64,000 nt of DNA from Crossaster papposus (taxonomy: Eukaryota; Echinodermata; Asteroidea; Velatida; Solasteridae): contig JBAIAA010000602.1 in assembly GCA_037893245.1 (NCBI GenBank), forward strand, positions 62,001 to 126,000, given 5' to 3'. Of the stretch, positions 30,565 to 64,000 are shown in pieces; position 1 is the stretch's first letter, and each line of letters opens with the position of its first letter. The notes below the pieces were generated by a model. It was not told where the DNA came from and did no database searches. It was given only the letters and a program-made list of their open reading frames with translations. The position numbers and the translations under genes were made by a program.

Positions 30565-30615
30565 ATTCCCCCCCCCCCCCCCAACCCCACCCCCCTACCC
30601 CCCAACCCCACCCCC

Positions 30616-30648
<33 letters not shown>

Positions 30649-30652
30649 ACCC
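30565..30652. repeat. Long C-rich homopolymer region
   Basis: Nearly pure C, interrupted by AACCCCA and CCTACC words. It sits next to the R3 repeat, as does the shorter C-run at 13446. A spurious glycine/tryptophan-rich frame on the minus strand comes from this tract. Confidence 0.85.
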
Positions 30653-30662
30653 CCCACCCTCT

Positions 30663-33837: not shown

Positions 33838-33909
33838 TGGAAGATCAAGAAAGTCCAGCATCATCCACACGATGTCACTCTCCACCAGTGGGGTCAGACT
33901 CGACAAGTG

Positions 33910-34091
33910 ACCCAGAAACATCTTGGCCTATCGCCGATTGGATTTATCAAGTCGTGTTTCAAGAGCAAGAACGGCACTCCTCGTCAGCCGTCCATCTGTG
34001 CCTTTTCAAGAGCCAAGCTGACGGTACTAAAAGAGGTCTTCCCCAATCAGGAGCATTCCGTCCAGGGTTTAAGCCAATTTTCCCACATTTG
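33910..34091 (+). CDS. TRMO: TRMO (tRNA m6t6A37 methyltransferase) exon, first half of the TsaA domain
   Basis: Encodes LSPIGFIKSCFKSKNGTPRQ, PSICAFSRAKLTV and HSVQGLSQFSHIW, the N-terminal half of the TsaA/TRMO beta-barrel that N6-methylates t6A37 in tRNA with SAM. The exon ends TTTG|GTGAGT, splitting the Trp codon after two bases; the exon at 42700 starts with the missing G. The 5' border is uncertain: the frame is open from 33838 and several AG sites occur (e.g. GACCCAG before AAACATC at about 33914). An ATG at 33837 lies in another frame. Codon use and conservation support a host gene. Confidence 0.85.
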
Positions 34092-35884: not shown

Positions 35885-36860
35885 TTAAAGCTGTTGAGTT
35901 GCCGATGACAACACAGCACCTCCAAAGTTTGACGAAGGAAGTTGTCTGTGGTAAAATCTTGCAAAAGTAGAGGCTGATGTCCAGTCTGCTGTTTTCATAA
36001 TTTCATTCGATGAAACCCCAGCTCGAGCTGCGGCTGAAGTACTTGCACTCCTTGTGGAATGCGCTTTAAAATGTGATGTGTCAATCCCTGATTGCAACAT
36101 AAAGTCCTTCAACCATCTAGAAATTGTAGAGGGAACCACTGGATGGAAGGGCTTTGAATGTGAAAGGAAAAGCTGGGTCATTCTGGAAGGACCAGTACCT
36201 CTGTGACATTGGGTTCTCTGAAGATACTCTTCTAAAGAACGGACTGGGCAGAGATTTCTGTGAGGCTGGAACCTAGAAATCTCAATCCGATGGAAGGGTT
36301 TACTGACTGAAGCACATTTTGAGGGCTTAACAAGCAGGAAACTGTATTTCCCATCAGTGGATCGAGTCATGTGATCGATGTCAATAGCCGTTAGGGAAGA
36401 TCGGCGACTGGCGGTTACAAGTGCAAGAAGCATAGCTAACTTGAGAGTTAACTGCCTTAATGACAAACGACGATTGTCAGGAAGAGACTTAACAAAGTTG
36501 AGGACCTTTGCGACATCCCATGTCAAGTTGTACTTTGGTCTCGGTGGGCGAAGCCCGAAAATACCTTTAAGGAATCTTCTCACTAAATGATGCTGACCAA
36601 TAGGAAAACCATCAATAAAAGAGTGAGCCGATGAAATTGCAGAACGATAAACATTTATCGTCCTGTAGCATAGGCCCTCATCAAACAGCTGCTGAAGAAA
36701 ATCTAAACAATTTGCTATAGAAGTTTGAACGGGATCAAATTTCCTTTGTAAACACCAGCTTGCCCATCTTTTCCAGGATGAATTATATTGCTTATTAGAC
36801 TGTGGTCTCCATGAAGCAAGGACAGTGGTTGACACCTTGTGTGAAAACCCCTCTGAAGAG
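35885..36860 (-). CDS. DIRS tyrosine recombinase
   Basis: The open frame runs up to 37720, but recombinase homology fills only about the last 320 codons; the upstream part overlaps RNase H in another frame. The N-terminal SAM-like core-binding region has LASWRPQSNKQYNSSWKRW and RTINVYRSAIS. The catalytic domain shows ALVTASRRSSL (first Arg), HSTRSAS (His-x-x-Arg) and FARFYHRQL (nucleophile Tyr). The R-H-R-Y set is intact. Its job is to integrate the circular cDNA without target duplication. It overlaps the end of the RNase H frame, as in other DIRS elements. No break is visible in this part. Confidence 0.88.
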
Positions 36861-38771
36861 AGATTCGCCCTGATAACTTCCATGCGGCCAGTTGGAGGCT
36901 GCCTATCAGAGGATGTACTTGAGACCGATCGTGGGGAAGCTGAAGGAGATCCCTTCTCCTGGGAAGGAGTAGAGGCATTTCTACTGCAAGCTCCAACAGT
37001 CTGGGGTACCAGGCCTGGGACTTCCACACCGGAGCGACAAGAATCACTGTAGCTTCCTCCTCGCTGATCTTTCGAAGAATCTTCAGAAGAAGCGAAAACG
37101 GAGGGAAAACATAACCGTTTATGTTCTTCCAGCTGAGAAGAAGAGCGTCGACTCTCCAGGCCATGGGGTCTGGTTGCCATGACACAAAGGTCTCCAGCTG
37201 CGTGTTCAAACGAGACGCGAAGAGGTCTACTGATGGGATGAAATCCAGAGCACTGGAAATCTTGTTGAATATTTCTGGGAGAAGCTGCCATTCTGTGCGA
37301 TCGTCGAAAACCCGTGACATCATGTCTGCCGTGATATTTTGAGACCCTGGTATGTGTTGTGCTACTAGAGTGATGTTTCTCTCGAGACACCAAACCCAGA
37401 TATTGACAGCGAGTTTCGACAGTGGAACCGAATGAGTTCCCCCCTGGTGATTGATATAAGCAATGGCCGTGGAGTTGTCCATCTGAAGGAGAACATGAAG
37501 GTCCCGCCGTTCTTTGAAGAAAGATTGGATGGCGTACCAAACTGCAAGCAGCTCGAGGTAATTGATATGATGGAGTTGTTCTTGCGACGTCCAACGGCCT
37601 CCTATCTTGGATTGAAGACAAGCGCCCCATCCCAACATTGACGCATCTGTTTGAAGGGTCACATCTGGTGTCAGATGAAGAAATAGCCGACCGTTCCAGG
37701 CATGAAGGCAACGAATCCATGTTCTCAGCTCCTCTCGAGAATTCTGCGAAAGAGTAACTGTGGACTCGTAACTGTTCTCCCTGCGGAGAGCGGAGATTTT
37801 GTCTTCCTGAAGACTGCGGTAAAAAACCCGAGCCTGAAGTACTGCAAGGATTGTTTAAGATAGCCTGCCTTATAGGCTGGAAAGTTGTCGAACAGTGACT
37901 TGTTCTGTTTCCAAAATCTTCTGGCAGTGACTGATGACCTGCTGGATCTTTTCTTGGTTTAAAGAGAGGGTCATATCTAAGGAGTTGATAACAAAGCCGA
38001 GGTATGTAATATCTTGACTAGGGACGATACAAGATTTTTCATCGTTGATGATGAAACCCAAATTACGAAGAAGATTGGTCGTCACCTGAGTGTTTGTCAT
38101 ACATCCATGGAAGGATGATCCAAGGACCAGAATGTCATTCAGGTAAAATATACAGCGAATACCACACTCTCTGAGGTGGAAAGCTACTGGTTTAAGAATC
38201 TTAGTAAAAGTGCGGGGGGCACTTGACAAACCGAAAGGAAGACAAGTAAATTGATAAATGACCTCATTCCAGATAAAACGAAGAAATCTTCTGTGACCAA
38301 AATCAATAGGAACTGAAAAATAAGCATCCTTCAGGTCTATTTTACACATCCAATCTCCGTGTGCTAAAAGATCTCTCACTGAAGAAATGTTCTCCATCTT
38401 GAAGTGTTGGTGCACAATAAATTTATTTAGTGGACGCAAATTAACTACTGGACGAAGATCCCCGAACGATTTTGGGACCATGAACAGAGTAGAAATAAAC
38501 TGTCCTTGTATACAGGCTGTTCAATGGTAACGGCACCTTTATCAAGCATTTTCTGTATCTCTAGGTTAAACATCGAAGCGTGTTTTTTAGATGGAGCGTG
38601 GGTTACAGGAACGAAAGACTGAAACGGAGTATAATTGAAGCTTAAACAGTAACCATTTAAGGTCTGAATGATCCAGGGATCGTGAGTTAATTTTAACCAA
38701 AAATTTGAAAAAAATCTCAAACGACCTGCTAAGGGTACAGAAAATGCTGGATTGGTACGTACGTTAGGCAA
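36715..38771 (-). pseudogene. DIRS reverse transcriptase and RNase H, broken
   Basis: RT starts near 38771 and shifts frame near 38480 into 38481-37870. It contains VPKSFGDLRPVVNLRPLNKF, CKIDLKDAYFSVPI (first Asp present), PFGLSSAPRTF and FYLNDILVLGSS. The YxDD motif reads YLND: the first Asp is Asn (AAT at 38137-38139, a G-to-A change on the coding strand). Stops occur near 37872 and 37858. RNase H is intact from 37662: LQTDASMLGWGA, NYLELLAVWYAI, LQMDNSTAIAYINHQGG and ITADMMSR keep the Asp/Glu/Asp set. The RT is predicted dead. Confidence 0.88.
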
Positions 38772-41206: not shown

Positions 41207-42699
41207 GTTGACTCCTCGCTGCACGTACAAACTTATCGCGGAAATTCCCATATGCAAATTAGGTGAACAGCGCCGCTCATTATGAGGTCATCGTACGTTC
41301 TCGCTTTACGCGCGTCATCGCCTTCGGCCACTTCCGGGTAGGTACGGACTCGTTTCAGTTTAATGAATGAATCATTATGCATCGGGTACTGCACATGCGT
41401 AGTGATGGTATGAGAAAAAGCTAAGATGGCCGCTGTCTAGTGCTGAAAAAAGCTTCCGAATCGGTGGAGTTTGGGTGAGTTATGACAGTTTAAAAACTTT
41501 TTGCGTCTTCCTTTTTTTGAACTCAAAGTTCAGAGAGTCCATATTTGTAATAATGTTATTCTTTCTCACCAAATTTCTTTGGAAATCAAGCGATTTAGTT
41601 CATTTGTTTAGCTGTCGAATGGTGTTACACACGTGGGTAATCGGATTGATAGCGCGATGGTCGCGAGCAATATTGCATGGCCATTTTAAGATGAAACTCC
41701 CAAAATTTGCCAATAATTCTCAAAGGATCACATGATAAACTACACGCGGCGTGTGAACGCATCAAGTTACATCGATGCATTTTTATGGAAATTGAGCGGC
41801 GGCGCATCGTTAAATATAGAATGACTGGAGGGGAATGACCAGCAAATTGGCGGGACAATCTTACGTCACAAAAGTCACTGATAATTTTGGGCATCAAATG
41901 AGTGCAAGTGCGCAGGCGTGCAAATTCCCGCATGATTTATGGGACAGGTTTGTAAAACTAACACAAGTAAATAACGCGCTGGAAAACTGGTGTCGATTTT
42001 CCTTGATTTGCAGGTCAAGAATTGATCGTGAATACCTTAGAAGTTCGTTAACTCAGCTTGGATACATATGGAAGGTTATTTAGACGATTTGTGTGGATTT
42101 TGGCGACATTTTGAACCACATTCAAGACATAATCATTCGTCAATATTCTTCTGGCTCGGCCTCTAGTACTACCTGTAGTAGCGCAAGATAATGCCCAAAT
42201 GTTAAAAAAGTGATAACTAGAAGCCAGTAACTCGGTCTACACCACACCGTGTTTTGTCGCACCGAAAAATAACTAGCTATTTACTTTACAAAATAGGGTC
42301 TGGAGCTAAAATTACTAGCCCAAATCAATATATCTTGGTATCAGTTTTCTTGTAGAAAGATTCTCCATCCATTGGTATAGGTAGTTTTGGCCTCATGGAA
42401 GTGGAAGTATGCTTGTTCGTTGAGATATTATGCTTGTTGGTTTTTTTGGGGGCCACCCTGTGTAAGTTTCTCTATACAAACACATCAAGCCAACGTCAAG
42501 CTCCCCAAAAATGTCCCCATCTTCCGCTTTTAAAAATAGTTAGGACGAGAAACATTTTTTTATTTGGCCTAACAGACCAGTTTTCACTGGTTGCGATGAG
42601 TTACCACTCAGCAATTCAGAATCAAGAACCATTGAGTTTTAGGTAAAATAAGTCTGGGACTTCAATAATTGCGCCCCAAATTGTATGTGTAATTTGCAG

Positions 42700-42859
42700 G
42701 ATACTATTCATCTCCACAAGAATGGTGATGGGCGGTTCACCAAGGCCAAAGTGAAGCCGCTTCGTTTAGACGGAGTCAAGGTTGGGGTTTTCGCCATCCG
42801 CAGTCCCCATCGACCCAATCCTATCGGCCTGACCTTAGCCAAGCTGGATAGAATCCAAG
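42700..42859 (+). CDS. TRMO: TRMO exon, second half of the TsaA core, with a one-base frameshift
   Basis: Follows TTTGCAG and ends CAAG|GTATTC. The first base completes the Trp codon split at 34091, and the next codons read ILFI. One base is then missing at 42713-42714; from 42715 the frame continues as HKNGDGRFTKAKVKPLRLDG, VKVGVFAIRS and PHRPNPIGLTLAKLDRIQ. The RSPHRPNPIGLT motif is the signature of the TsaA/TRMO family (SAM and tRNA binding region). The missing base would disrupt the protein unless it is a base-call error. The last 55 bp of the exon are the founder of the satellite that follows. The rest of the gene must lie beyond the window. Confidence 0.88.
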
Positions 42860-43016
42860 GTATTCATAACCCCATCGACCCAATCCTATCGGCCTGACCT
42901 AATAGCTCAGCTGAATAGAATCAACGGTATTCATAACCCCATTGACCCAATCCTACCGGCCTGACCTAATAGCTAAGCTGGATAGAATCCACGGTATTCA
43001 TATAATAATAATAATT
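42805..43016 (+). repeat. Satellite founder and first monomers
   Basis: Monomer 0 is the exon end itself plus ten intron bases (42805-42869, starting CCCCATCGACCCAATCC). Monomer 1 is 42870-42936 and monomer 2 is 42937 to about 43005, then an ATA run. Monomers 1 and 2 carry CCTAATAGCT in place of the exon's CCTTAGCC, a two-base gain that puts stops in frame, and CAACGGTATTC or CCACGGTATTC at the old splice junction. Confidence 0.92.
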
Positions 43017-44434
43017 GGGGAGGCTAATCATCCTTACTCGCAGCTGGTGTGCTGAATTGCGAAGGATGCAAGTGACACCAAATGACTTTTCATGTGTCAC
43101 GTCGCATTAAATAACCATTTTTTTCAAAAGAACCTAAAAACAAATGTAAACATTGGTTTTTATGTTGAGTATTTCCTAACGTTTCTAAAAATGTATAGTT
43201 TAGCAAATCTACACAAACAGTGAACGAAACTTTCAATATGTACATTATGAACCTGACTTGGAGGCAAGGGCTTTACACACAAGCCACCCAACCAATCCTA
43301 TCGGCTTGATCTGTTAGCTAAGCTTGATAGAATCCAAGGTATTATATTCCCATCGACCCAGTCCTATCGGCCTGACCTTAGCTAAGCTGGATAGAATCCA
43401 AGGTATTCATATTCCCATCGACCCAATCCTACCGGCCTGACCTAATAGCTAAGCTTGATAGAATCCAAGGTATATCCCAATCGACCCAATCCTATCGGCC
43501 TGAGCTAATAGCTAAGCTGACTAGAATCAACGGTATTCATAACCCCATTGACCCAATCCTATCGGCCTGACCTAATAGCTAAGCTTGATAGAATCCAATG
43601 TATTCATAACCCCATCGACCCAATCCTACCGGCCTGACCTAATAGCTAAGCTGGATAGAATCAACGGTATTCATATAATAATAATAGTAATTGGGGAGGC
43701 TAATCATCCTTACTCGCAGCTGGTGTGCTGAATTGCGAAGGATGCAAGTGACACCCAATGACTTTTCATGTGTCACGTCGCATTAAATAACCATTTATTT
43801 CAAAAGTACCTAAAAACAAATGTAAACATTGGTTTTTATGTTGAGTATTTCCTAACGTTTCTAAAAATGTATAGTTTAGCAAATCTACACAAACAGTGAA
43901 CGAAACTTTCAATATGTACATTATGAACCTGACTTGGAGGCAAGCGCTTTACACACAAGCCACCCAACCAATCCTATCGGCTTGATCTGTTAGCTAAGCT
44001 TGATAGAATCCAAGGTATTATATTCCCATCGACCCAGTCCTATCGGCCTGACCTTAGCTAAGCTGGATAGAATCCAAGGTATTCATATTCCCATCGACCC
44101 AATCCTACCGGCCTGACCTAATAGCTAAGCTGGATAGAATCCAAGGTATATCCCAATCGACCCAATCCTATCGGCCTGAGCTAATGGCTAAGCTGAATAG
44201 AATCAACGGTATTCATAACCCCATTGACCCAATCCTATCGGCCTGACCTAATAGCTAAGCTGGATAGAATCCATGGAAAATCCCAATCGACCCAATCCTA
44301 TCGGCCTGACCTAATAGCTAAGCTTGATAGAATCCATGGTTTTCATAACCCCATCGACCCAATCCTACCGGCCTGACCTAATACATGTAGCTTAGCTGGA
44401 TAGAATCCACGGTATTCATATAATAATAATAATT
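43017..44434 (+). repeat. Proximal satellite, diverged units with 6 and 7 monomers
   Basis: Unit A (43017-43692, 676 bp) has a spacer of about 270 bp and six monomers. Unit B (43693-44434, 742 bp) has the spacer and seven monomers. The spacer starts GGGGAGGCTAATCATCC and ends ACACAAGCCACCC. These units differ from each other and from the distal array at many sites, as expected at the edge of a homogenising array. Confidence 0.92.
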
Positions 44435-47400
44435 GGGGAGGCTAATCATCCTTACTCGCAGCTGGTGTGCTGAATTGCGAAGGATGCAAGTGACACCCAA
44501 TGACTTTTCATGTGTCACGTCACATTAAAGAACCATTTTTTCAAAAGAACCTAAAAACAAATGTAAACATTGGTTTTTATGTTGAGTATTTCCTAACGTT
44601 TCCAAAAATGTATAGTTTAGCAAATCTACACAAACAGTGAACGAAACTTTCAATATGTACATTATGAACCTTACTTGGAGGCAAAGGCTTTACACACAAG
44701 CCACCCAACCCAATCCTATCGGCTTGATCTGTTAGCTAAGCTTGATAGAATCCAAGGTATTATTTTCCATCGACCCAGTCCTATCGGCCTGACCTTAGCT
44801 AAGTTGGATAGAATCCAAGGTATTTATATTCCCATCGACCCAATCCTACCGGCCTGACCTAATAGCTAAGCTGGATAGAATCCATGGAAAATCCCAATCG
44901 ACCCAATCCTATCGGCCTGACCTAATAGCTAAGCTTGATAGAATCCATGGTTTTCATAACCCCATCGACCCAATCCTACCGGCCTGACCTAATAGCTAAG
45001 CTGGATAGAATCCACGGTATTCATATAATAATAATAATTGGGGAGGCTAATCATCCTTACTCGCAGCTGGTGTGCTGAATTGCGAAGGATGCAAGTGACA
45101 CCCAATGACTTTTCATGTGTCACGTCACATTAAAGAACCATTTTTTCAAAAGAACCTAAAAACAAATGTAAACATTGGTTTTTATGTTGAGTATTTCCTA
45201 ACGTTTCCAAAAATGTATAGTTTAGCAAATCTACACAAACAGTGAACGAAACTTTCAATATGTACATTATGAACCTTACTTGGAGGCAAAGGCTTTACAC
45301 ACAAGCCACCCAACCCAATCCTATCGGCTTGATCTGTTAGCTAAGCTTGATAGAATCCAAGGTATTATATTCCCATCGACCCAGTCCTATCGGCCTGACC
45401 TTAGCTAAGTTGGATAGAATCCAAGGTATTTATATTCCCATCGACCCAATCCTACCGGCCTGACCTAATAGCTAAGCTGGATAGAATCCATGGAAAATCC
45501 CAATCGACCCAATCCTATCGGCCTGACCTAATAGCTAAGCTTGATAGAATCCATGGTTTTCATAACCCCATCGACCCAATCCTACCGGCCTGACCTAATA
45601 GCTAAGCTGGATAGAATCCACGGTATTCATATAATAATAATAATTGGGGAGGCTAATCATCCTTACTCGCAGCTGGTGTGCTGAATTGCGAAGGATGCAA
45701 GTGACACCCAATGACTTTTCATGTGTCACGTCACATTAAAGAACCATTTTTTCAAAAGAACCTAAAAACAAACGTAAACATTGGTTTTTATGTTGAGTAT
45801 TTCCTAACGTTTCCAAAAATGTATAGTTTAGCAAATCTACACAAACAGTGAACGAAACTTTCAATATGTACATTATGAACCTTACTTGGAGGCAAAGGCT
45901 TTACACACAAGCCACCCAACCCAATCCTATCGGCTTGATCTGTTAGCTAAGCTTGATAGAATCCAAGGTATTATATTCCCATCGACCCAGTCCTATCGGC
46001 CTGACCTTAGCTAAGTTGGATAGAATCCAAGGTATTTATATTCCCATCGACCCAATCCTACCGGCCTGACCTAATAGCTAAGCTGGATAGAATCCATGGA
46101 AAATCCCAATCGACCCAATCCTATCGGCCTGACCTAATAGCTAAGCTTGATAGAATCCATGGTTTTCATAACCCCATCGACCCAATCCTACCGGCCTGAC
46201 CTAATAGCTAAGCTGGATAGAATCCACGGTATTCATATAATAATAATAATTGGGGAGGCTAATCATCCTTACTCGCAGCTGGTGTGCTGAATTGCGAAGG
46301 ATGCAAGTGACACCCAATGACTTTTCATGTGTCACGTCACATTAAAGAACCATTTTTTCAAAAGAACCTAAAAACAAATGTAAACATTGGTTTTTATGTT
46401 GAGTATTTCCTAACGTTTCCAAAAATGTATAGTTTAGCAAATCTACACAAACAGTGAACGAAACTTTCAATATGTACATTATGAACCTTACTTGGAGGCA
46501 AAGGCTTTACACACAAGCCACCCAACCCAATCCTATCGGCTTGATCTGTTAGCTAAGCTTGATAGAATCCAAGGTATTATATTCCCATCGACCCAGTCCT
46601 ATCGGCCTGACCTTAGCTAAGTTGGATAGAATCCAAGGTATTTATATTCCCATCGACCCAATCCTACCGGCCTGACCTAATAGCTAAGCTGGATAGAATC
46701 CATGGAAAATCCCAATCGACCCAATCCTATCGGCCTGACCTAATAGCTAAGCTTGATAGAATCCATGGTTTTCATAACCCCATCGACCCAATCCTACCGG
46801 CCTGACCTAATAGCTAAGCTGGATAGAATCCACGGTATTCATATAATAATAATAATTGGGGAGGCTAATCATCCTTACTCGCAGCTGGTGTGCTGAATTG
46901 CGAAGGATGCAAGTGACACCCAATGACTTTTCATGTGTCACGTCACATTAAAGAACCATTTTTTCAAAAGAACCTAAAAACAAATGTAAACATTGGTTTT
47001 TATGTTGAGTATTTCCTAACGTTTCCAAAAATGTATAGTTTAGCAAATCTACACAAACAGTGAACGAAACTTTCAATATGTACATTATGAACCTTACTTG
47101 GAGGCAAAGGCTTTACACACAAGCCACCCAACCCAATCCTATCGGCTTGATCTGTTAGCTAAGCTTGATAGAATCCAAGGTATTATATTCCCATCGACCC
47201 AGTCCTATCGGCCTGACCTTAGCTAAGTTGGATAGAATCCAAGGTATTTATATTCCCATCGACCCAATCCTACCGGCCTGACCTAATGGCTAAGCTGGAT
47301 AGAATCCATGGAAAATCCCAATCGACCCAATCCTATCGGCCTGACCTAATAGCTAAGCTTGATAGAATCCATGGTTTTCATAACCCCATCGACCCAATCC

Positions 47401-50400
47401 TACCGGCCTGACCTAATAGCTTAGCTGGATAGAATCCACGGTATTCATATAATAATAATAATTGGGGAGGCTAATCATCCTTACTCGCAGCTGGTGTGCT
47501 GAATTGCGAAGGATGCAAGTGACACCCAATGACTTCATGTGTCACGTCACATTAAAGAACCATTTTTTCAAAAGAACCTAAAAACAAACGTAAACATTGG
47601 TTTTTATGTTGAGTATTTCCTAACGTTTCCAAAAATGTATAGTTTAGCAAATCTACACAAACAGTGAACGAAACTTTCAATATGTACATTATGAACCTTA
47701 CTTGGAGGCAAAGGCTTTACACACAAGCCACCCAACCCAATCCTATCGGCTTGATCTGTTAGCTAAGCTTGATAGAATCCAAGGTATTATATTCCCATCG
47801 ACCCAGTCCTATCGGCCTGACCTTAGCTAAGTTGGATAGAATCCAAGGTATTTATATTCCCATCGACCCAATCCTACCGGCCTGACCTAATAGCTAAGCT
47901 GGATAGAATCCATGGAAAATCCCAATCGACCCAATCCTATCGGCCTGACCTAATAGCTAAGCTTGATAGAATCCATGGTTTTCATAACCCCATCGACCCA
48001 ATCCTACCGGCCTGACCTAATAGCTAAGCTGGATAGAATCCACGGTATTCATATAATAATAATAATTGGGGAGGCTAATCATCCTTACTCGCAGCTGGTG
48101 TGCTGAATTGCGAAGGATGCAAGTGACACCCAATGACTTTTCATGTGTCACGTCACATTAAAGAACCATTTTTTCAAAAGAACCTAAAAACAAATGTAAA
48201 CATTGGTTTTTATGTTGAGTATTTCCTAACGTTTCCAAAAATGTATAGTTTAGCAAATCTACACAAACAGTGAACGAAACTTTCAATATGTACATTATGA
48301 ACCTTACTTGGAGGCAAAGGCTTTACACACAAGCCACCCAACCCAATCCTATCGGCTTGATCTGTTAGCTAAGCTTGATAGAATCCAAGGTATTATATTC
48401 CCATCGACCCAGTCCTATCGGCCTGACCTTAGCTAAGTTGGATAGAATCCAAGGTATTTATATTCCCATCGACCCAATCCTACCGGCCTGACCTAATAGC
48501 TAAGCTGGATAGAATCCATGGAAAATCCCAATCGACCCAATCCTATCGGCCTGACCTAATAGCTAAGCTTGATAGAATCCATGGTTTTCATAACCCCATC
48601 GACCCAATCCTACCGGCCTGACCTAATAGCTAAGCTGGATAGAATCCACGGTATTCATATAATAATAATAATTGGGGAGGCTAATCATCCTTACTCGCAG
48701 CTGGTGTGCTGAATTGCGAAGGATGCAAGTGACACCCAATGACTTTTCATGTGTCACGTCACATTAAAGAACCATTTTTTCAAAAGAACCTAAAAACAAA
48801 TGTAAACATTGGTTTTTATGTTGAGTATTTCCTAACGTTTCCAAAAATGTATAGTTTAGCAAATCTACACAAACAGTGAACGAAACTTTCAATATGTACA
48901 TTATGAACCTTACTTGGAGGCAAAGGCTTTACACACAAGCCACCCAACCCAATCCTATCGGCTTGATCTGTTAGCTAAGCTTGATAGAATCCAAGGTATT
49001 ATATTCCCATCGACCCAGTCCTATCGGCCTGACCTTAGCTAAGTTGGATAGAATCCAAGGTATTTATATTCCCATCGACCCAATCCTACCGGCCTGACCT
49101 AATGGCTAAGCTGGATAGAATCCATGGAAAATCCCAATCGACCCAATCCTATCGGCCTGACCTAATAGCTAAGCTTGATAGAATCCATGGTTTTCATAAC
49201 CCCATCGACCCAATCCTACCGGCCTGACCTAATAGCTTAGCTGGATAGAATCCACGGTATTCATATAATAATAATAATTGGGGAGGCTAATCATCCTTAC
49301 TCGCAGCTGGTGTGCTGAATTGCGAAGGATGCAAGTGACACCCAATGACTTCATGTGTCACGTCACATTAAAGAACCATTTTTTCAAAAGAACCTAAAAA
49401 CAAATGTAAACATTGGTTTTTATGTTGAGTATTTCCTAACGTTTCCAAAAATGTATAGTTTAGCAAATCTACACAAACAGTGAACGAAACTTTCAATATG
49501 TACATTATGAACCTTACTTGGAGGCAAAGGCTTTACACACAAGCCACCCAACCCAATCCTATCGGCTTGATCTGTTAGCTAAGCTTGATAGAATCCAAGG
49601 TATTATATTCCCATCGACCCAGTCCTATCGGCCTGACCTTAGCTAAGTTGGATAGAATCCAAGGTATTTATATTCCCATCGACCCAATCCTACCGGCCTG
49701 ACCTAATAGCTAAGCTGGATAGAATCCATGGAAAATCCCAATCGACCCAATCCTATCGGCCTGACCTAATAGCTAAGCTTGATAGAATCCATGGTTTTCA
49801 TAACCCCATCGACCCAATCCTACCGGCCTGACCTAATAGCTAAGCTGGATAGAATCCACGGTATTCATATAATAATAATAATTGGGGAGGCTAATCATCC
49901 TTACTCGCAGCTGGTGTGCTGAATTGCGAAGGATGCAAGTGACACCCAATGACTTTTCATGTGTCACGTCACATTAAAGAACCATTTTTTCAAAAGAACC
50001 TAAAAACAAATGTAAACATTGGTTTTTATGTTGAGTATTTCCTAACGTTTCCAAAAATGTATAGTTTAGCAAATCTACACAAACAGTGAACGAAACTTTC
50101 AATATGTACATTATGAACCTTACTTGGAGGCAAAGGCTTTACACACAAGCCACCCAACCCAATCCTATCGGCTTGATCTGTTAGCTAAGCTTGATAGAAT
50201 CCAAGGTATTATATTCCCATCGACCCAGTCCTATCGGCCTGACCTTAGCTAAGTTGGATAGAATCCAAGGTATTTATATTCCCATCGACCCAATCCTACC
50301 GGCCTGACCTAATAGCTAAGCTGGATAGAATCCATGGAAAATCCCAATCGACCCAATCCTATCGGCCTGACCTAATAGCTAAGCTTGATAGAATCCATGG

Positions 50401-53400
50401 TTTTCATAACCCCATCGACCCAATCCTACCGGCCTGACCTAATAGCTAAGCTGGATAGAATCCACGGTATTCATATAATAATAATAATTGGGGAGGCTAA
50501 TCATCCTTACTCGCAGCTGGTGTGCTGAATTGCGAAGGATGCAAGTGACACCCAATGACTTTTCATGTGTCACGTCACATTAAAGAACCATTTTTTCAAA
50601 AGAACCTAAAAACAAATGTAAACATTGGTTTTTATGTTGAGTATTTCCTAACGTTTCCAAAAATGTATAGTTTAGCAAATCTACACAAACAGTGAACGAA
50701 ACTTTCAATATGTACATTATGAACCTTACTTGGAGGCAAAGGCTTTACACACAAGCCACCCAACCCAATCCTATCGGCTTGATCTGTTAGCTAAGCTTGA
50801 TAGAATCCAAGGTATTATATTCCCATCGACCCAGTCCTATCGGCCTGACCTTAGCTAAGTTGGATAGAATCCAAGGTATTTATATTCCCATCGACCCAAT
50901 CCTACCGGCCTGACCTAATAGCTAAGCTGGATAGAATCCATGGAAAATCCCAATCGACCCAATCCTATCGGCCTGACCTAATAGCTAAGCTTGATAGAAT
51001 CCATGGTTTTCATAACCCCATCGACCCAATCCTACCGGCCTGACCTAATAGCTAAGCTGGATAGAATCCACGGTATTCATATAATAATAATAATTGGGGA
51101 GGCTAATCATCCTTACTCGCAGCTGGTGTGCTGAATTGCGAAGGATGCAAGTGACACCCAATGACTTTTCATGTGTCACGTCACATTAAAGAACCATTTT
51201 TTCAAAAGAACCTAAAAACAAATGTAAACATTGGTTTTTATGTTGAGTATTTCCTAACGTTTCCAAAAATGTATAGTTTAGCAAATCTACACAAACAGTG
51301 AACGAAACTTTCAATATGTACATTATGAACCTTACTTGGAGGCAAAGGCTTTACACACAAGCCACCCAACCCAATCCTATCGGCTTGATCTGTTAGCTAA
51401 GCTTGATAGAATCCAAGGTATTATATTCCCATCGACCCAGTCCTATCGGCCTGACCTTAGCTAAGTTGGATAGAATCCAAGGTATTTATATTTCCATCGA
51501 CCCAATCCTACCGGCCTGACCTAATAGCTAAGCTGGATAGAATCCATGGAAAATCCCAATCGACCCAATCCTATCGGCCTGACCTAATAGCTAAGCTTGA
51601 TAGAATCCATGGTTTTTATAACCCCATCGACCCAATCCTACCGGCCTGACCTAATAGCTAAGCTGGATAGAATCCACGGTATTCATATAATAATAATAAT
51701 TGGGGAGGCTAATCATCCTTACTCGCAGCTGGTGTGCTGAATTGCGAAGGATGCAAGTGACACCCAATGACTTTTCATGTGTCACGTCACATTAAAGAAC
51801 CATTTTTTCAAAAGAACCTAAAAACAAATGTAAACATTGGTTTTTATGTTGAGTATTTCCTAACGTTTCCAAAAATGTATAGTTTAGCAAATCTACACAA
51901 ACAGTGAACGAAACTTTCAATATGTACATTATGAACCTTACTTGGAGGCAAAGGCTTTACACACAAGCCACCCAACCCAATCCTATCGGCTTGATCTGTT
52001 AGCTAAGCTTGATAGAATCCAAGGTATTATATTCCCATCGACCCAGTCCTATCGGCCTGACCTTAGCTAAGTTGGATAGAATCCAAGGTATTTATATTCC
52101 CATCGACCCAATCCTACCGGCCTGACCTAATAGCTAAGCTGGATAGAATCCATGGAAAATCCCAATCGACCCAATCCTATCGGCCTGACCTAATAGCTAA
52201 GCTTGATAGAATCCATGGTTTTCATAACCCCATCGACCCAATCCTACCGGCCTGACCTAATAGCTAAGCTGGATAGAATCCACGGTATTCATATAATAAT
52301 AATAATTGGGGAGGCTAATCATCCTTACTCGCAGCTGGTGTGCTGAATTGCGAAGGATGCAAGTGACACCCAATGACTTTTCATGTGTCACGTCACATTA
52401 AAGAACCATTTTTTCAAAAGAACCTAAAAACAAATGTAAACATTGGTTTTTATGTTGAGTATTTCCTAACGTTTCCAAAAATGTATAGTTTAGCAAATCT
52501 ACACAAACAGTGAACAAAACTTTCAATATGTACATTATGAACCTTACTTGGAGGCAAAGGCTTTACACACAAGCCACCCAACCCAATCCTATCGGCTTGA
52601 TCTGTTAGCTAAGCTTGATAGAATCCAAGGTATTATATTCCCATCGACCCAGTCCTATCGGCCTGACCTTAGCTAAGTTGGATAGAATCCAAGGTATTTA
52701 TATTCCCATCGACCCAATCCTACCGGCCTGACCTAATAGCTAAGCTGGATAGAATCCATGGAAAATCCCAATCGACCCAATCCTATCGGCCTGACCTAAT
52801 AGCTAAGCTTGATAGAATCCATGGTTTTCATAACCCCATCGACCCAATCCTACCGGCCTGACCTAATAGCTAAGCTGGATAGAATCCACGGTATTCATAT
52901 AATAATAATAATAATTGGGGAGGCTAATCATCCTTACTCGCAGCTGGTGTGCTGAATTGCGAAGGATGCAAGTGACACCCAATGACTTTTCATGTGTCAC
53001 GTCACATTAAAGAACCATTTTTTCAAAAGAACCTAAAAACAAATGTAAACATTGGTTTTTATGTTGAGTATTTCCTAACGTTTCCAAAAATGTATAGTTT
53101 AGCAAATCTACACAAACAGTGAACGAAACTTTCAATATGTACATTATGAACCTTACTTGGAGGCAAAGGCTTTACACACAAGCCACCCAACCCAATCCTA
53201 TCGGCTTGATCTGTTAGCTAAGCTTGATAGAATCCAAGGTATTATATTCCCATCGACCCAGTCCTATCGGCCTGACCTTAGCTAAGTTGGATAGAATCCA
53301 AGGTATTTATATTCCCATCGACCCAATCCTACCGGCCTGACCTAATAGCTAAGCTGGATAGAATCCATGGAAAATCCCAATCGACCCAATCCTATCGGCC

Positions 53401-56400
53401 TGACCTAATAGCTAAGCTTGATAGAATCCATGGTTTTCATAACCCCATCGACCCAATCCTACCGGCCTGACCTAATAGCTAAGCTGGATAGAATCCACGG
53501 TATTCATATAATAATAATAATTGGGGAGGCTAATCATCCTTACTCGCAGCTGGTGTGCTGAATTGCGAAGGATGCAAGTGACACCCAATGACTTTTCATG
53601 TGTCACGTCACATTAAAGAACCATTTTTTCAAAAGAACCTAAAAACAAATGTAAACATTGGTTTTTATGTTTAGTATTTCCTAACGTAACGTTTCCAAAA
53701 TGTTATAGTTTAGCCAAATTCTACACTACACACAGTGAACGAAACTTTCAATCATGTACATTATGAACCCTTACTTGGAAGGCAAAGGCTTTACACACAA
53801 GCCACCCAACCCAATCCTATCGGCTTGATCTGTTAGCTAAGCTTGATAGAATCCAAGGTATTATATTCCCATCGACCCAGTCCTATCGGCCTGACCTTAG
53901 CTAAGTTGGATAGAATCCAAGGTATTTATATTCCCATCGACCCAATCCTACCGGCCTGACCTAATAGCTAAGCTGGATAGAATCCATGGAAAATCCCAAT
54001 CGACCCAATCCTATCGGCCTGACCTAATAGCTAAGCTTGATAGAATCCATGGTTTTCATAACCCCATCGACCCAATCCTACCGGCCTGACCTAATAGCTA
54101 AGCTGGATAGAATCCACGGTATTCATATAATAATAATAATTGGGGAGGCTAATCATCCTTACTCGCAGCTGGTGTGCTGAATTGCGAAGGATGCAAGTGA
54201 CACCCAATGACTTTTCATGTGTCACGTCACATTAAAGAACCATTTTTTCAAAAGAACCTAAAAACAAATGTAAACATTGGTTTTTATGTTGAGTATTTCC
54301 TAACGTTTCCAAAAATGTATAGTTTAGCAAATCTACACAAACAGTGAACGAAACTTTCAATATGTACATTATGAACCTTACTTGGAGGCAAAGGCTTTAC
54401 ACACAAGCCACCCAACCCAATCCTATCGGCTTGATCTGTTAGCTAAGCTTGATAGAATCCAAGGTATTATATTCCCATCGACCCAGTCCTATCGGCCTGA
54501 CCTTAGCTAAGTTGGATAGAATCCAAGGTATTTATATTCCCATCGACCCAATCCTACCGGCCTGACCTAATAGCTAAGCTGGATAGAATCCATGGAAAAT
54601 CCCAATCGACCCAATCCTATCGGCCTGACCTAATAGCTAAGCTTGATAGAATCCATGGTTTTCATAACCCCATCGACCCAATCCTACCGGCCTGACCTAA
54701 TAGCTAAGCTGGATAGAATCCACGGTATTCATATAATAATAATAATTGGGGAGGCTAATCATCCTTACTCGCAGCTGGTGTGCTGAATTGCGAAGGATGC
54801 AAGTGACACCCAATGACTTTTCATGTGTCACGTCACATTAAAGAACCATTTTTTCAAAAGAACCTAAAAACAAATGTAAACATTGGTTTTTATGTTGAGT
54901 ATTTCCTAACGTTTCCAAAAATGTATAGTTTAGCAAATCTACACAAACAGTGAACGAAACTTTCAATATGTACATTATGAACCTTACTTGGAGGCAAAGG
55001 CTTTACACACAAGCCACCCAACCCAATCCTATCGGCTTGATCTGTTAGCTAAGCTTGATAGAATCCAAGGTATTATATTCCCATCGACCCAGTCCTATCG
55101 GCCTGACCTTAGCTAAGTTGGATAGAATCCAAGGTATTTATATTCCCATCGACCCAATCCTACCGGCCTGACCTAATAGCTAAGCTGGATAGAATCCATG
55201 GAAAATCCCAATCGACCCAATCCTATCGGCCTGACCTAATAGCTAAGCTTGATAGAATCCATGGTTTTCATAACCCCATCGACCCAATCCTACCGGCCTG
55301 ACCTAATAGCTAAGCTGGATAGAATCCACGGTATTCATATAATAATAATAATTGGGGAGGCTAATCATCCTTACTCGCAGCTGGTGTGCTGAATTGCGAA
55401 GGATGCAAGTGACACCCAATGACTTTTCATGTGTCACGTCACATTAAAGAACCATTTTTTCAAAAGAACCTAAAAACAAATGTAAACATTGGTTTTTATG
55501 TTGAGTATTTCCTAACGTTTCCAAAAATGTATAGTTTAGCAAATCTACACAAACAGTGAACGAAACTTTCAATATGTACATTATGAACCTTACTTGGAGG
55601 CAAAGGCTTTACACACAAGCCACCCAACCCAATCCTATCGGCTTGATCTGTTAGCTAAGCTTGATAGAATCCAAGGTATTATATTCCCATCGACCCAGTC
55701 CTATCGGCCTGACCTTAGCTAAGTTGGATAGAATCCAAGGTATTTATATTCCCATCGACCCAATCCTACCGGCCTGACCTAATAGCTAAGCTGGATAGAA
55801 TCCATGGAAAATCCCAATCGACCCAATCCTATCGGCCTGACCTAATAGCTAAGCTTGATAGAATCCATGGTTTTCATAACCCCATCGACCCAATCCTACC
55901 GGCCTGACCTAATAGCTAAGCTGGATAGAATCCACGGTATTCATATAATAATAATAATTGGGGAGGCTAATCATCCTTACTCGCAGCTGGTGTGCTGAAT
56001 TGCGAAGGATGCAAGTGACACCCAATGACTTTTCATGTGTCACGTCACATTAAAGAACCATTTTTTCAAAAGAACCTAAAAACAAATGTAAACATTGGTT
56101 TTTATGTTGAGTATTTCCTAACGTTTCCAAAAATGTATAGTTTAGCAAATCTACACAAACAGTGAACGAAACTTTCAATATGTACATTATGAACCTTACT
56201 TGGAGGCAAAGGCTTTACACACAAGCCACCCAACCCAATCCTATCGGCTTGATCTGTTAGCTAAGCTTGATAGAATCCAAGGTATTATATTCCCATCGAC
56301 CCAGTCCTATCGGCCTGACCTTAGCTAAGTTGGATAGAATCCAAGGTATTTATATTCCCATCGACCCAATCCTACCGGCCTGACCTAATAGCTAAGCTGG

Positions 56401-59400
56401 ATAGAATCCATGGAAAATCCCAATCGACCCAATCCTATCGGCCTGACCTAATAGCTAAGCTTGATAGAATCCATGGTTTTCATAACCCCATCGACCCAAT
56501 CCTACCGGCCTGACCTAATAGCTAAGCTGGATAGAATCCACGGTATTCATATAATAATAATAATTGGGGAGGCTAATCATCCTTACTCGCAGCTGGTGTG
56601 CTGAATTGCGAAGGATGCAAGTGACACCCAATGACTTTTCATGTGTCACGTCACATTAAAGAACCATTTTTTCAAAAGAACCTAAAAACAAATGTAAACA
56701 TTGGTTTTTATGTTGAGTATTTCCTAACGTTTCCAAAAATGTATAGTTTAGCAAATCTACACAAACAGTGAACGAAACTTTCAATATGTACATTATGAAC
56801 CTTACTTGGAGGCAAAGGCTTTACACACAAGCCACCCAACCCAATCCTATCGGCTTGATCTGTTAGCTAAGCTTGATAGAATCCAAGGTATTATATTCCC
56901 ATCGACCCAGTCCTATCGGCCTGACCTTAGCTAAGTTGGATAGAATCCAAGGTATTTATATTCCCATCGACCCAATCCTACCGGCCTGACCTAATAGCTA
57001 AGCTGGATAGAATCCATGGAAAATCCCAATCGACCCAATCCTATCGGCCTGACCTAATAGCTAAGCTTGATAGAATCCATGGTTTTCATAACCCCATCGA
57101 CCCAATCCTACCGGCCTGACCTAATAGCTAAGCTGGATAGAATCCACGGTATTCATATAATAATAATAATTGGGGAGGCTAATCATCCTTACTCGCAGCT
57201 GGTGTGCTGAATTGCGAAGGATGCAAGTGACACCCAATGACTTTTCATGTGTCACGTCACATTAAAGAACCATTTTTTCAAAAGAACCTAAAAACAAATG
57301 TAAACATTGGTTTTTATGTTGAGTATTTCCTAACGTTTCCAAAAATGTATAGTTTAGCAAATCTACACAAACAGTGAACGAAACTTTCAATATGTACATT
57401 ATGAACCTTACTTGGAGGCAAAGGCTTTACACACAAGCCACCCAACCCAATCCTATCGGCTTGATCTGTTAGCTAAGCTTGATAGAATCCAAGGTATTAT
57501 ATTCCCATCGACCCAGTCCTATCGGCCTGACCTTAGCTAAGTTGGATAGAATCCAAGGTATTTATATTCCCATCGACCCAATCCTACCGGCCTGACCTAA
57601 TAGCTAAGCTGGATAGAATCCATGGAAAATCCCAATCGACCCAATCCTATCGGCCTGACCTAATAGCTAAGCTTGATAGAATCCATGGTTTTCATAACCC
57701 CATCGACCCAATCCTACCGGCCTGACCTAATAGCTAAGCTGGATAGAATCCACGGTATTCATATAATAATAATAATTGGGGAGGCTAATCATCCTTACTC
57801 GCAGCTGGTGTGCTGAATTGCGAAGGATGCAAGTGACACCCAATGACTTTTCATGTGTCACGTCACATTAAAGAACCATTTTTTCAAAAGAACCTAAAAA
57901 CAAATGTAAACATTGGTTTTTATGTTGAGTATTTCCTAACGTTTCCAAAAATGTATAGTTTAGCAAATCTACACAAACAGTGAACGAAACTTTCAATATG
58001 TACATTATGAACCTTACTTGGAGGCAAAGGCTTTACACACAAGCCACCCAACCCAATCCTATCGGCTTGATCTGTTAGCTAAGCTTGATAGAATCCAAGG
58101 TATTATATTCCCATCGACCCAGTCCTATCGGCCTGACCTTAGCTAAGTTGGATAGAATCCAAGGTATTTATATTCCCATCGACCCAATCCTACCGGCCTG
58201 ACCTAATAGCTAAGCTGGATAGAATCCATGGAAAATCCCAATCGACCCAATCCTATCGGCCTGACCTAATAGCTAAGCTTGATAGAATCCATGGTTTTCA
58301 TAACCCCATCGACCCAATCCTACCGGCCTGACCTAATAGCTAAGCTGGATAGAATCCACGGTATTCATATAATAATAATAATTGGGGAGGCTAATCATCC
58401 TTACTCGCAGCTGGTGTGCTGAATTGCGAAGGATGCAAGTGACACCCAATGACTTTTCATGTGTCACGTCACATTAAAGAACCATTTTTTCAAAAGAACC
58501 TAAAAACAAATGTAAACATTGGTTTTTATGTTGAGTATTTCCTAACGTTTCCAAAAATGTATAGTTTAGCAAATCTACACAAACAGTGAACGAAACTTTC
58601 AATATGTACATTATGAACCTTACTTGGAGGCAAAGGCTTTACACACAAGCCACCCAACCCAATCCTATCGGCTTGATCTGTTAGCTAAGCTTGATAGAAT
58701 CCAAGGTATTATATTCCCATCGACCCAGTCCTATCGGCCTGACCTTAGCTAAGTTGGATAGAATCCAAGGTATTTATATTCCCATCGACCCAATCCTACC
58801 GGCCTGACCTAATAGCTAAGCTGGATAGAATCCATGGAAAATCCCAATCGACCCAATCCTATCGGCCTGACCTAATAGCTAAGCTTGATAGAATCCATGG
58901 TTTTCATAACCCCATCGACCCAATCCTACCGGCCTGACCTAATAGCTAAGCTGGATAGAATCCACGGTATTCATATAATAATAATAATTGGGGAGGCTAA
59001 TCATCCTTACTCGCAGCTGGTGTGCTGAATTGCGAAGGATGCAAGTGACACCCAATGACTTTTCATGTGTCACGTCACATTAAAGAACCATTTTTTCAAA
59101 AGAACCTAAAAACAAATGTAAACATTGGTTTTTATGTTGAGTATTTCCTAACGTTTCCAAAAATGTATAGTTTAGCAAATCTACACAAACAGTGAACGAA
59201 ACTTTCAATATGTACATTATGAACCTTACTTGGAGGCAAAGGCTTTACACACAAGCCACCCAACCCAATCCTATCGGCTTGATCTGTTAGCTAAGCTTGA
59301 TAGAATCCAAGGTATTATATTCCCATCGACCCAGTCCTATCGGCCTGACCTTAGCTAAGTTGGATAGAATCCAAGGTATTTATATTCCCATCGACCCAAT

Positions 59401-62400
59401 CCTACCGGCCTGACCTAATAGCTAAGCTGGATAGAATCCATGGAAAATCCCAATCGACCCAATCCTATCGGCCTGACCTAATAGCTAAGCTTGATAGAAT
59501 CCATGGTTTTCATAACCCCATCGACCCAATCCTACCGGCCTGACCTAATAGCTAAGCTGGATAGAATCCACGGTATTCATATAATAATAATAATTGGGGA
59601 GGCTAATCATCCTTACTCGCAGCTGGTGTGCTGAATTGCGAAGGATGCAAGTGACACCCAATGACTTTTCATGTGTCACGTCACATTAAAGAACCATTTT
59701 TTCAAAAGAACCTAAAAACAAATGTAAACATTGGTTTTTATGTTGAGTATTTCCTAACGTTTCCAAAAATGTATAGTTTAGCAAATCTACACAAACAGTG
59801 AACGAAACTTTCAATATGTACATTATGAACCTTACTTGGAGGCAAAGGCTTTACACACAAGCCACCCAACCCAATCCTATCGGCTTGATCTGTTAGCTAA
59901 GCTTGATAGAATCCAAGGTATTATATTCCCATCGACCCAGTCCTATCGGCCTGACCTTAGCTAAGTTGGATAGAATCCAAGGTATTTATATTCCCATCGA
60001 CCCAATCCTACCGGCCTGACCTAATAGCTAAGCTGGATAGAATCCATGGAAAATCCCAATCGACCCAATCCTATCGGCCTGACCTAATAGCTAAGCTTGA
60101 TAGAATCCATGGTTTTCATAACCCCATCGACCCAATCCTACCGGCCTGACCTAATAGCTAAGCTGGATAGAATCCACGGTATTCATATAATAATAATAAT
60201 TGGGGAGGCTAATCATCCTTACTCGCAGCTGGTGTGCTGAATTGCGAAGGATGCAAGTGACACCCAATGACTTTTCATGTGTCACGTCACATTAAAGAAC
60301 CATTTTTTCAAAAGAACCTAAAAACAAATGTAAACATTGGTTTTTATGTTGAGTATTTCCTAACGTTTCCAAAAATGTATAGTTTAGCAAATCTACACAA
60401 ACAGTGAACGAAACTTTCAATATGTACATTATGAACCTTACTTGGAGGCAAAGGCTTTACACACAAGCCACCCAACCCAATCCTATCGGCTTGATCTGTT
60501 AGCTAAGCTTGATAGAATCCAAGGTATTATATTCCCATCGACCCAGTCCTATCGGCCTGACCTTAGCTAAGTTGGATAGAATCCAAGGTATTTATATTCC
60601 CATCGACCCAATCCTACCGGCCTGACCTAATAGCTAAGCTGGATAGAATCCATGGAAAATCCCAATCGACCCAATCCTATCGGCCTGACCTAATAGCTAA
60701 GCTTGATAGAATCCATGGTTTTCATAACCCCATCGACCCAATCCTACCGGCCTGACCTAATAGCTAAGCTGGATAGAATCCACGGTATTCATATAATAAT
60801 AATAATTGGGGAGGCTAATCATCCTTACTCGCAGCTGGTGTGCTGAATTGCGAAGGATGCAAGTGACACCCAATGACTTTTCATGTGTCACGTCACATTA
60901 AAGAACCATTTTTTCAAAAGAACCTAAAAACAAATGTAAACATTGGTTTTTATGTTGAGTATTTCCTAACGTTTCCAAAAATGTATAGTTTAGCAAATCT
61001 ACACAAACAGTGAACGAAACTTTCAATATGTACATTATGAACCTTACTTGGAGGCAAAGGCTTTACACACAAGCCACCCAACCCAATCCTATCGGCTTGA
61101 TCTGTTAGCTAAGCTTGATAGAATCCAAGGTATTATATTCCCATCGACCCAGTCCTATCGGCCTGACCTTAGCTAAGTTGGATAGAATCCAAGGTATTTA
61201 TATTCCCATCGACCCAATCCTACCGGCCTGACCTAATAGCTAAGCTGGATAGAATCCATGGAAAATCCCAATCGACCCAATCCTATCGGCCTGACCTAAT
61301 AGCTAAGCTTGATAGAATCCATGGTTTTCATAACCCCATCGACCCAATCCTACCGGCCTGACCTAATAGCTAAGCTGGATAGAATCCACGGTATTCATAT
61401 AATAATAATAATTGGGGAGGCTAATCATCCTTACTCGCAGCTGGTGTGCTGAATTGCGAAGGATGCAAGTGACACCCAATGACTTTTCATGTGTCACGTC
61501 ACATTAAAGAACCATTTTTTCAAAAGAACCTAAAAACAAATGTAAACATTGGTTTTTATGTTGAGTATTTCCTAACGTTTCCAAAAATGTATAGTTTAGC
61601 AAATCTACACAAACAGTGAACGAAACTTTCAATATGTACATTATGAACCTTACTTGGAGGCAAAGGCTTTACACACAAGCCACCCAACCCAATCCTATCG
61701 GCTTGATCTGTTAGCTAAGCTTGATAGAATCCAAGGTATTATATTCCCATCGACCCAGTCCTATCGGCCTGACCTTAGCTAAGTTGGATAGAATCCAATG
61801 GTATTTATATTCCCATCGACCCAATCCTACCGGCCTGACCTAATAGCTAAGCTGGATAGAATCCATGGAAAATCCCAATCGACCCAATCCTATCGGCCTG
61901 ACCTAATAGCTAAGCTTGATAGAATCCATGGTTTTCATAACCCCATCGACCCAATCCTACCGGCCTGACCTAATAGCTAAGCTGGATAGAATCCACGGTA
62001 TTCATATAATAATAATAATTGGGGAGGCTAATCATCCTTACTCGCAGCTGGTGTGCTGAATTGCGAAGGATGCAAGTGACACCCAATGACTTTTCATGTG
62101 TCACGTCACATTAAAGAACCATTTTTTCAAAAGAACCTAAAAACAAATGTAAACATTGGTTTTTATGTTGAGTATTTCCTAACGTTTCCAAAAATGTATA
62201 GTTTAGCAAATCTACACAAACAGTGAACGAAACTTTCAATATGTACATTATGAACCTTACTTGGAGGCAAAGGCTTTACACACAAGCCACCCAACCCAAT
62301 CCTATCGGCTTGATCTGTTAGCTAAGCTTGATAGAATCCAAGGTATTATATTCCCATCGACCCAGTCCTATCGGCCTGACCTTAGCTAAGTTGGATAGAA

Positions 62401-64000
62401 TCCAAGGTATTTATATTCCCATCGACCCAATCCTACCGGCCTGACCTAATAGCTAAGCTGGATAGAATCCATGGAAAATCCCAATCGACCCAATCCTATC
62501 GGCCTGACCTAATAGCTAAGCTTGATAGAATCCATGGTTTTCATAACCCCATCGACCCAATCCTACCGGCCTGACCTAATAGCTAAGCTGGATAGAATCC
62601 ACGGTATTCATATAATAATAATAATTGGGGAGGCTAATCATCCTTACTCGCAGCTGGTGTGCTGAATTGCGAAGGATGCAAGTGACACCCAATGACTTTT
62701 CATGTGTCACGTCACATTAAAGAACCATTTTTTCAAAAGAACCTAAAAACAAATGTAAACATTGGTTTTTATGTTGAGTATTTCCTAACGTTTCCAAAAA
62801 TGTATAGTTTAGCAAATCTACACAAACAGTGAACGAAACTTTCAATATGTACATTATGAACCTTACTTGGAGGCAAAGGCTTTACACACAAGCCACCCAA
62901 CCCAATCCTATCGGCTTGATCTGTTAGCTAAGCTTGATAGAATCCAAGGTATTATATTCCCATCGACCCAGTCCTATCGGCCTGACCTTAGCTAAGTTGG
63001 ATAGAATCCAAGGTATTTATATTCCCATCGACCCAATCCTACCGGCCTGACCTAATAGCTAAGCTGGATAGAATCCATGGAAAATCCCAATCGACCCAAT
63101 CCTATCGGCCTGACCTAATAGCTAAGCTTGATAGAATCCATGGTTTTCATAACCCCATCGACCCAATCCTACCGGCCTGACCTAATAGCTAAGCTGGATA
63201 GAATCCACGGTATTCATATAATAATAATAATTGGGGAGGCTAATCATCCTTACTCGCAGCTGGTGTGCTGAATTGCGAAGGATGCAAGTGACACCCAATG
63301 ACTTTTCATGTGTCACGTCACATTAAAGAACCATTTTTTCAAAAGAACCTAAAAACAAATGTAAACATTGGTTTTTATGTTGAGTATTTCCTAACGTTTC
63401 CAAAAATGTATAGTTTAGCAAATCTACACAAACAGTGAACGAAACTTTCAATATGTACATTATGAACCTTACTTGGAGGCAAAGGCTTTACACACAAGCC
63501 ACCCAACCCAATCCTATCGGCTTGATCTGTTAGCTAAGCTTGATAGAATCCAAGGTATTATATTCCCATCGACCCAGTCCTATCGGCCTGACCTTAGCTA
63601 AGTTGGATAGAATCCAAGGTATTTATATTCCCATCGACCCAATCCTACCGGCCTGACCTAATAGCTAAGCTGGATAGAATCCATGGAAAATCCCAATCGA
63701 CCCAATCCTATCGGCCTGACCTAATAGCTAAGCTTGATAGAATCCATGGTTTTCATAACCCCATCGACCCAATCCTACCGGCCTGACCTAATAGCTAAGC
63801 TGGATAGAATCCACGGTATTCATATAATAATAATAATTGGGGAGGCTAATCATCCTTACTCGCAGCTGGTGTGCTGAATTGCGAAGGATGCAAGTGACAC
63901 CCAATGACTTTTCATGTGTCACGTCACATTAAAGAACCATTTTTTCAAAAGAACCTAAAAACAAATGTAAACATTGGTTTTTATGTTGAGTATTTCCTAA
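44435..64000 (+). repeat. Homogenised 606 bp higher-order satellite array
   Basis: Anchoring on GGGGAGGCTAATC gives starts at 44435, 45040, 45646, 46252, 46858, 47464, 48068 and so on to 63839: 32 complete units plus 162 bp at the window edge. The period is 606 bp (605, 604, 607, 609 and 619 in a few units). Each unit is a ~269 bp spacer, five exon-derived monomers of 62-68 bp, and an ATAATAATAATAATT link. Units appear nearly identical. Monomer 2 keeps the exon length and reads HRPSPIGLTLAKLDRIQG; the others have CCTAATAGCT, and monomers 3-5 have lost the CAAG|GT junction. The array continues past the window. Confidence 0.95.

Follow-up and report, generated by a model that had tools for sequence, protein, structure and literature searches.

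Probable origin of a higher-order satellite array from an exon-intron junction of a TRMO gene copy in the sea star Crossaster papposus

A stretch of 64,000 nucleotides from the sea star Crossaster papposus (assembly GCA_037893245.1, contig JBAIAA010000602.1, positions 62,001 to 126,000 of the forward strand; referred to as the window, in the coordinates of which all positions are given) contains an exon of the gene TRMO, and the end of this exon is also the first unit of a long tandem array. This raises the question of whether the array arose from the exon and at the place where the two are now joined, or whether exon and array met in some other way. An earlier interpretation made from the letters alone, here called the sequence-only reading, had proposed that the exon is the ancestor and the satellite its derivative. 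Our reading, to which we assign a probability of roughly three in four, is that the array arose where it now stands, out of the junction between an exon and its intron in a copy of TRMO. The sequence-only reading is mostly right on the direction of descent, but it has the structure of the array wrong and describes the condition of the gene incompletely.

The exon and the array joined to it

The exon in question is the second TRMO exon of the window, exon B (42700..42859, +), with an acceptor ag that ends at 42699, a donor gtattc from 42860 and a frame break near 42710. Its translation (42700-42861), DTIHLHKNGDGRFTKAKVKPLRLDGVKVGVFAIRSPHRPNPIGLTLAKLDRIQG, belongs to the TrmO_N family by domain similarity (PF01980, residues 4-54, Pfam E 1.1e-12) and is 88% identical across 50 aa to TRMO of Patiria miniata, which bears out the claim that a genuine TRMO exon is present. 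Four solved chains of the TrmO family, presumably microbial judging by their names, also match the translation. With exon B joined to the upstream exon A (see below) as query, 417 proteins were retrieved at E <= 1e-5 among 455 candidates, and the best matches (among the best 120 of the 417) are sea-star TRMO proteins from Patiria miniata (85%), Acanthaster planci (82%) and Asterias (78% and 77%). The TRMO homology ends at a glycine codon that is split by the donor gt after 42859, and the peptide encoded by the exon segment that is repeated in the array is conserved across bacterial and animal proteins.

The founder, i.e. the first monomer of the array (42805..42869, +), is made up of the final 55 bp of exon B followed by 10 bases from the start of the intron, as had been proposed, and from there the monomers follow head to tail and reach the window end at 64000; the 21,196 bp covered is a lower bound on the length of the array. 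Using a core-motif search we identified 176 head-to-tail monomers in 35 blocks, with block sizes of 3, 6 and 7 followed by 32 blocks of 5. The blocks alternate with a spacer of ~280 bp (35 copies in the window, the final one truncated by the window end), which results in a repeat unit of 606 bp, and the monomers account for 11,547 of the 21,196 bp in 42805-64000 (54%; one monomer with an insertion was trimmed to 67 bases in this sum). The tandem array of >21 kb in the sequence-only reading does run to the window end, but it is a higher-order repeat and not monomers throughout. Likewise, the proposed spacing of 65-67 bp applies inside blocks only (65 and 67 bp for the second and third monomers of block 0, and 63-67 bp within regular blocks). 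The composition of 55 exon and ten intron bases fits the founder, but the intron part is changed in most copies (AAGGTATT is present 68 times and AAGGTATTCATAA once), and the junction sequence CCCCATCGACCC, which had been assigned to every monomer, is found exactly in only 36 places.

Block 0 comprises the founder and two further monomers (42870..43003, +), each with 7 differences relative to the exon copy, and is followed by the first spacer copy (43004..43281, +), which starts with an ATA run and continues with TTGGGGAGGC. Blocks 1 and 2 (six and seven monomers, separated by a single spacer copy; 43282..44421, +) head two diverged units at the array edge (676 and 742 bp), which match the consensus of the regular unit at 86.58% and 77.45% of the aligned columns, the shortfall being due largely to their extra monomers. 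The homogenised higher-order array of 606-bp units, each with five monomers and a spacer, occupies 44700..64000 (+) and runs past the window end. The regular units (n=31) are 604-619 bp long; 22 of them do not differ from the consensus, and the mean pairwise identity is 99.5% with a minimum of 94.7%; the five inner monomer classes differ from the exon copy at 6-14 positions. Hence, this is a long head-to-tail array with concerted homogenisation, as in a satellite, and its monomers are diverged with units that are far more alike, as in a higher-order repeat. None of the 15-mers of the exon monomer is present in bases 1-42690, and the array could be confined to one locus. As expected for an animal repeat, the exact monomer core pattern gave 0 occurrences in prokaryote genome contigs and 0 in viral contigs.

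Within the regular array, units 7 and 10 (47123-49542), which are three units apart, have two rare substitutions and a 2-bp deletion in common, and units 4 and 7 have one further substitution in common. The variants shared by units 7 and 10 suggest a three-unit segmental duplication within the array.

Direction of descent and the birth of the unit

The satellite very probably descends from the exon, because the exon encodes a conserved peptide and because all other monomers share a state that is absent from it. Specifically, the array contains 26 distinct monomer types, the exon copy included, and with a single exception the variable columns show the exon state in one or more of the other types as well. 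The exceptional column reads GCC in the exon and GCT in 25 of the 25 other types, corresponding to 175 of 175 monomers, and the difference is synonymous. A frame-breaking 2-bp insertion (with six further bases in one copy) is present in 141 of the 175 non-exon monomers, while 34 have kept the exon length at this site. The peptide PSPIGLTLAKLDRIQG, the exon counterpart of which is PNPIGLTLAKLDRIQG, is still encoded by 33 of the 176 monomers; these copies occur once per block, in all but one of the 34 blocks that follow block 0, and all of them are among the 34 monomers that do not carry the insertion. Moreover, the coding-like class-2 monomers differ from the exon at 4 positions in blocks 1-2 and at 6-7 positions deeper in the array. 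With one site uniting the 175 other monomers and the insertion nested in 141 of them, the exon would lie outside the satellite clade, and the direction proposed in the sequence-only reading is supported.

That the founder still stands in place, as had also been proposed, is supported by the exon being monomer 1 in the register of the array and by the edge blocks, which we read as intermediate forms. The reverse order, a satellite that came first and an exon derived from it, was rejected in view of the conservation of the encoded peptide in bacterial and animal proteins; it is also opposed by the exon retaining the TRMO frame and by the 141 monomers that do not have the exon length at the insertion site.

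Several points weigh against an origin of the array from the exon. The maximum-likelihood tree of the monomers (24 of the 26 types, with b2m7 and the last monomer at the window end omitted and gaps not modelled) has low support, and its midpoint root is located on the long class-1 branch and not at the exon; the monomer tree that the sequence-only reading had called for thus gave no clear answer when rooted in this way. The rooting depends on the coding homology and on one shared site of presumed polarity. The edge-to-core trend is not uniform, since the class-5-like monomers show 6-7 differences from the exon whether they lie at the edge or in the core, with the exception of one edge copy (18 differences) that carries an insertion and was trimmed at 67 bases. 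Finally, the source of the spacer was not found in the sequence ahead of the array: no copy was found in bases 1-42800, and the best match there, 38 bp at 74%, was taken as chance.

How the 606-bp unit came about can be followed in its third monomer. In its majority version (29 copies), this monomer matches block-2 monomer 3 exactly in its 5' part and block-2 monomer 5 exactly in its 3' part, with a crossover point anywhere from base 20 to 55, and this exact recombinant suggests that a seven-monomer block was shortened to five by unequal exchange. An origin from the exon might then have proceeded as follows. The 65-bp segment with the end of exon B and ten intron bases would first have been duplicated in tandem, after which GCC changed to GCT in a descendant monomer and one branch gained the frame-breaking 2-bp insertion; these two changes are read from the sequence and their polarity is presumed. 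The ~280-bp spacer would have joined the repeat through a larger unequal exchange, or through the incorporation of intron or transposon DNA from nearby, such that the repeat unit became a monomer block plus spacer. As strongly indicated by the recombinant, monomers 3 and 5 of the seven-monomer block would subsequently have undergone unequal exchange, with the loss of two monomers, which gave rise to the five-monomer unit of 606 bp, and this unit appears to have been amplified and homogenised to at least 31 near-identical copies while the exon-side blocks remained diverged. The array would accordingly be non-coding DNA that is kept by unequal crossing-over, with no evident function. A variant of this course, in which the satellite was born in situ from a working TRMO core and the growth of the repeat killed the gene, we consider unlikely; on that variant the array would be a fossil record of a gene on its way to satellite DNA, with the coding exon, the intermediate blocks and the homogenised higher-order satellite as its stages.

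The spacer itself may be the continuation of the original intron after the junction, or it may be an inserted mobile element. Its ATA start together with its loosely matching ends, TTGGGGAGGC and GCCACCCAA (a weak inverted match, by eye only), points to a mobile element, albeit only as a hint, and no duplication flanking the spacer ends was seen by eye. No similarity to the exon or the monomers was detectable (best E 3.5), and Rfam gave no match up to E 1 in 42600-45700. A known RNA or a repeat found elsewhere was rejected as the identity of the spacer on the basis of Rfam and of the comparisons with bases 1-42800 and with the monomers. With respect to coding capacity, the longest open stretch in the 606-bp unit is 62 aa, and up to E 10 none of 8 candidate proteins matched a 62-aa reading of the monomers.

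The foreign look of the spacer, with its ATA run and its ends, would also fit a satellite that formed elsewhere, either in a working TRMO gene or in a mobile element with a captured exon end, and that was later joined to the present copy by homologous recombination or insertion; moreover, the broken local TRMO copy may itself be a relocated segment. We regard such an origin as improbable. A satellite arriving from elsewhere does not account well for an exon that stands in the array register and does not have the state common to the 175 other monomers, nor for edge blocks that are intermediate instead of standard 606-bp units, and a copy of the spacer is not found in bases 1-42800.

State of the local TRMO copy and its surroundings

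The sequence-only reading implied a working TRMO gene, and this part is not supported. The 5' exon, exon A (33755..34091, +; start unmapped), was located by tblastn with Patiria TRMO (residues 2-114). Residues 2-33 correspond to 33755-33862, through in-frame stops, and residues 49-114 to 33895-34092; the similarity is split over three reading frames, and the exon ends with FSHIW followed by gtgagt. Residues 119-168 correspond to 42712-42861, i.e. exon B, in which the frame of the start (ILFI) is not that of the remainder (HKNGDG...). Among the matches listed, tblastn gave nothing in the window for residues 169-416 other than echoes of the array monomers, one of them a weak match that extends to residue 193 (E 0.23).

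For the analysis of conserved positions we used columns that are conserved in at least 95% of 60 homologues (n=39 for the window copy). The window copy deviates at three of the 39, with a P to Q change in a column where 59 of 60 homologues agree, a P to L change in a column where 60 of 60 agree, and the frame break (entered as X). In a leave-one-out control with 20 homologues, 16 deviate at 0 of 35 conserved columns and four at 1 of 36; these homologues are database gene models, with a bias toward intact copies, and this too counts against our reading. In the last 20 codons of exon B, the conserved columns are all unchanged. The window thus holds no intact TRMO frame with its conserved residues. 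Sequencing error could explain single indels, the two substitutions at near-invariant prolines less easily. Because of the frame breaks in both exons, the stops in exon A and the loss of the two prolines, the local TRMO copy is probably a pseudogene.

If the frame breaks were nevertheless sequencing errors, TRMO would be a working gene, with the array in an intron of an active gene and spliced across from exon B. The unchanged conserved columns at the end of the exon, along with the acceptor and the GT donor, are what such a gene would have. However, the proline changes are substitutions and not indel errors, both exons have frame changes, and no downstream exon was found in the window. The donor gtattc is, in addition, a weak splice site. 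We see little chance of a working gene here. An assembly chimera, in which a distant satellite shares 65 bp with the TRMO exon, is very unlikely: frame breaks in both exons could reflect an error-rich assembly and 22 identical units among 31 are hard for assemblers, but three distinct transitional blocks stand between the exon and the ordinary 606-bp units, a record of recombination that argues against a simple chimera, which would more likely join a standard unit, and any satellite with 65 bp of the TRMO exon would in any case remain TRMO-derived. Growth in place, from the junction of a gene copy that is probably dead, is the reading we retain.

Pieces of a DIRS-like retroelement with tyrosine recombinase and reverse transcriptase (35885..38481, -; limits unmapped; Pfam Phage_integrase 4.7e-08 and RVT_1 6.4e-24) are situated in the intron between exons A and B, and among the matches listed the closest relative of the recombinase open reading frame (ORF; 611 aa) is a Patiria miniata protein with 72% identity. 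At 40883-41206 there is an element resembling a miniature inverted-repeat transposable element; its inverted-repeat arms are nested and measure 28, 32 and 23 nt, with complementarities of 89%, 91% and 96%. Elsewhere in the window, three separate ORFs at 8820-12244 (-) account for pol pieces of a long terminal repeat retrotransposon (protease, reverse transcriptase, RNase H and integrase) and for a DUF7041 ORF. At 19087-20911 (+), an ORF of 379 aa and one of 234 aa overlap each other; they have no Pfam match up to E 0.01 and are possibly, as a guess, a split transposase. An imperfect poly-C tract of 92 bp (81% matches) is present at 30568-30659.

Relation to known satellites and significance

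Satellites derived from genes and tandem repeats that act as splice donors are both already known. The CapA satellite of New World monkeys is reported to have originated from an intron of NOS1AP by duplication and unequal crossing-over (Valeri et al. 2018, according to the passages on it in PMC8210747 and PMC7210261). As described there, CapA is similar to the present array in being traced to a single-copy sequence within a gene, and differs in that it is ~1,500 bp, intronic and with a source found by species comparison, whereas the segment here measures 65 bp, is coding for the most part and has remained attached to its array. The minisatellite of IFI6 is reportedly short and straddles an exon-intron boundary. 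It supplies splice donor sites (a 1995 report, as cited in passages of PMC4526556 and PMC3618361). According to these passages it is likewise a tandem repeat in a gene with units that act as splice donors, but the gene is expressed with alternative splicing, while the array described here is >21 kb, higher-order and attached to a probably dead copy. As far as the cited passages go, these two precedents reduce the rarity that the sequence-only reading had claimed for a satellite with its coding founder attached.

In higher-order repeat satellites several diverged monomers form one amplified and homogenised unit (as outlined in the relevant part of PMC5615363). On that description the present array agrees with them in its homogenised multi-monomer unit, and differs in that its unit includes a ~280-bp spacer that is not monomer. 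Alpha satellite is a familiar higher-order repeat, and diverged units at the array edge, as are present here, are familiar for such repeats too. In characiform fish, CharSat01-52 forms an array of short monomers in non-coding parts of ppfia1, and the authors infer that it was inserted into the gene later (in the section of PMC8210747 concerned). It is thus, on the account of that section, a short-monomer array within a gene as well, but one inserted after it arose, whereas the monomer of the present array consists of gene sequence. Among the literature matches listed we found no satellite from a coding exon of one gene, no similar sea-star satellite, and no higher-order array with a mostly coding-exon monomer that has its founder and transitional blocks in place.

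The founders of satellites are usually lost or homogenised away. Since the founder proposed here codes for a conserved peptide of an enzyme, it is recognisable without reference to the repeat. Transitional units have been kept beside it, and among them are the two monomers that appear to be the parents of the recombinant one amplified later. The locus would accordingly provide a stepwise example of the birth of a satellite and of a higher-order repeat for comparison with models of unequal crossing-over, with the root of the series checkable against outgroup TRMO exons.

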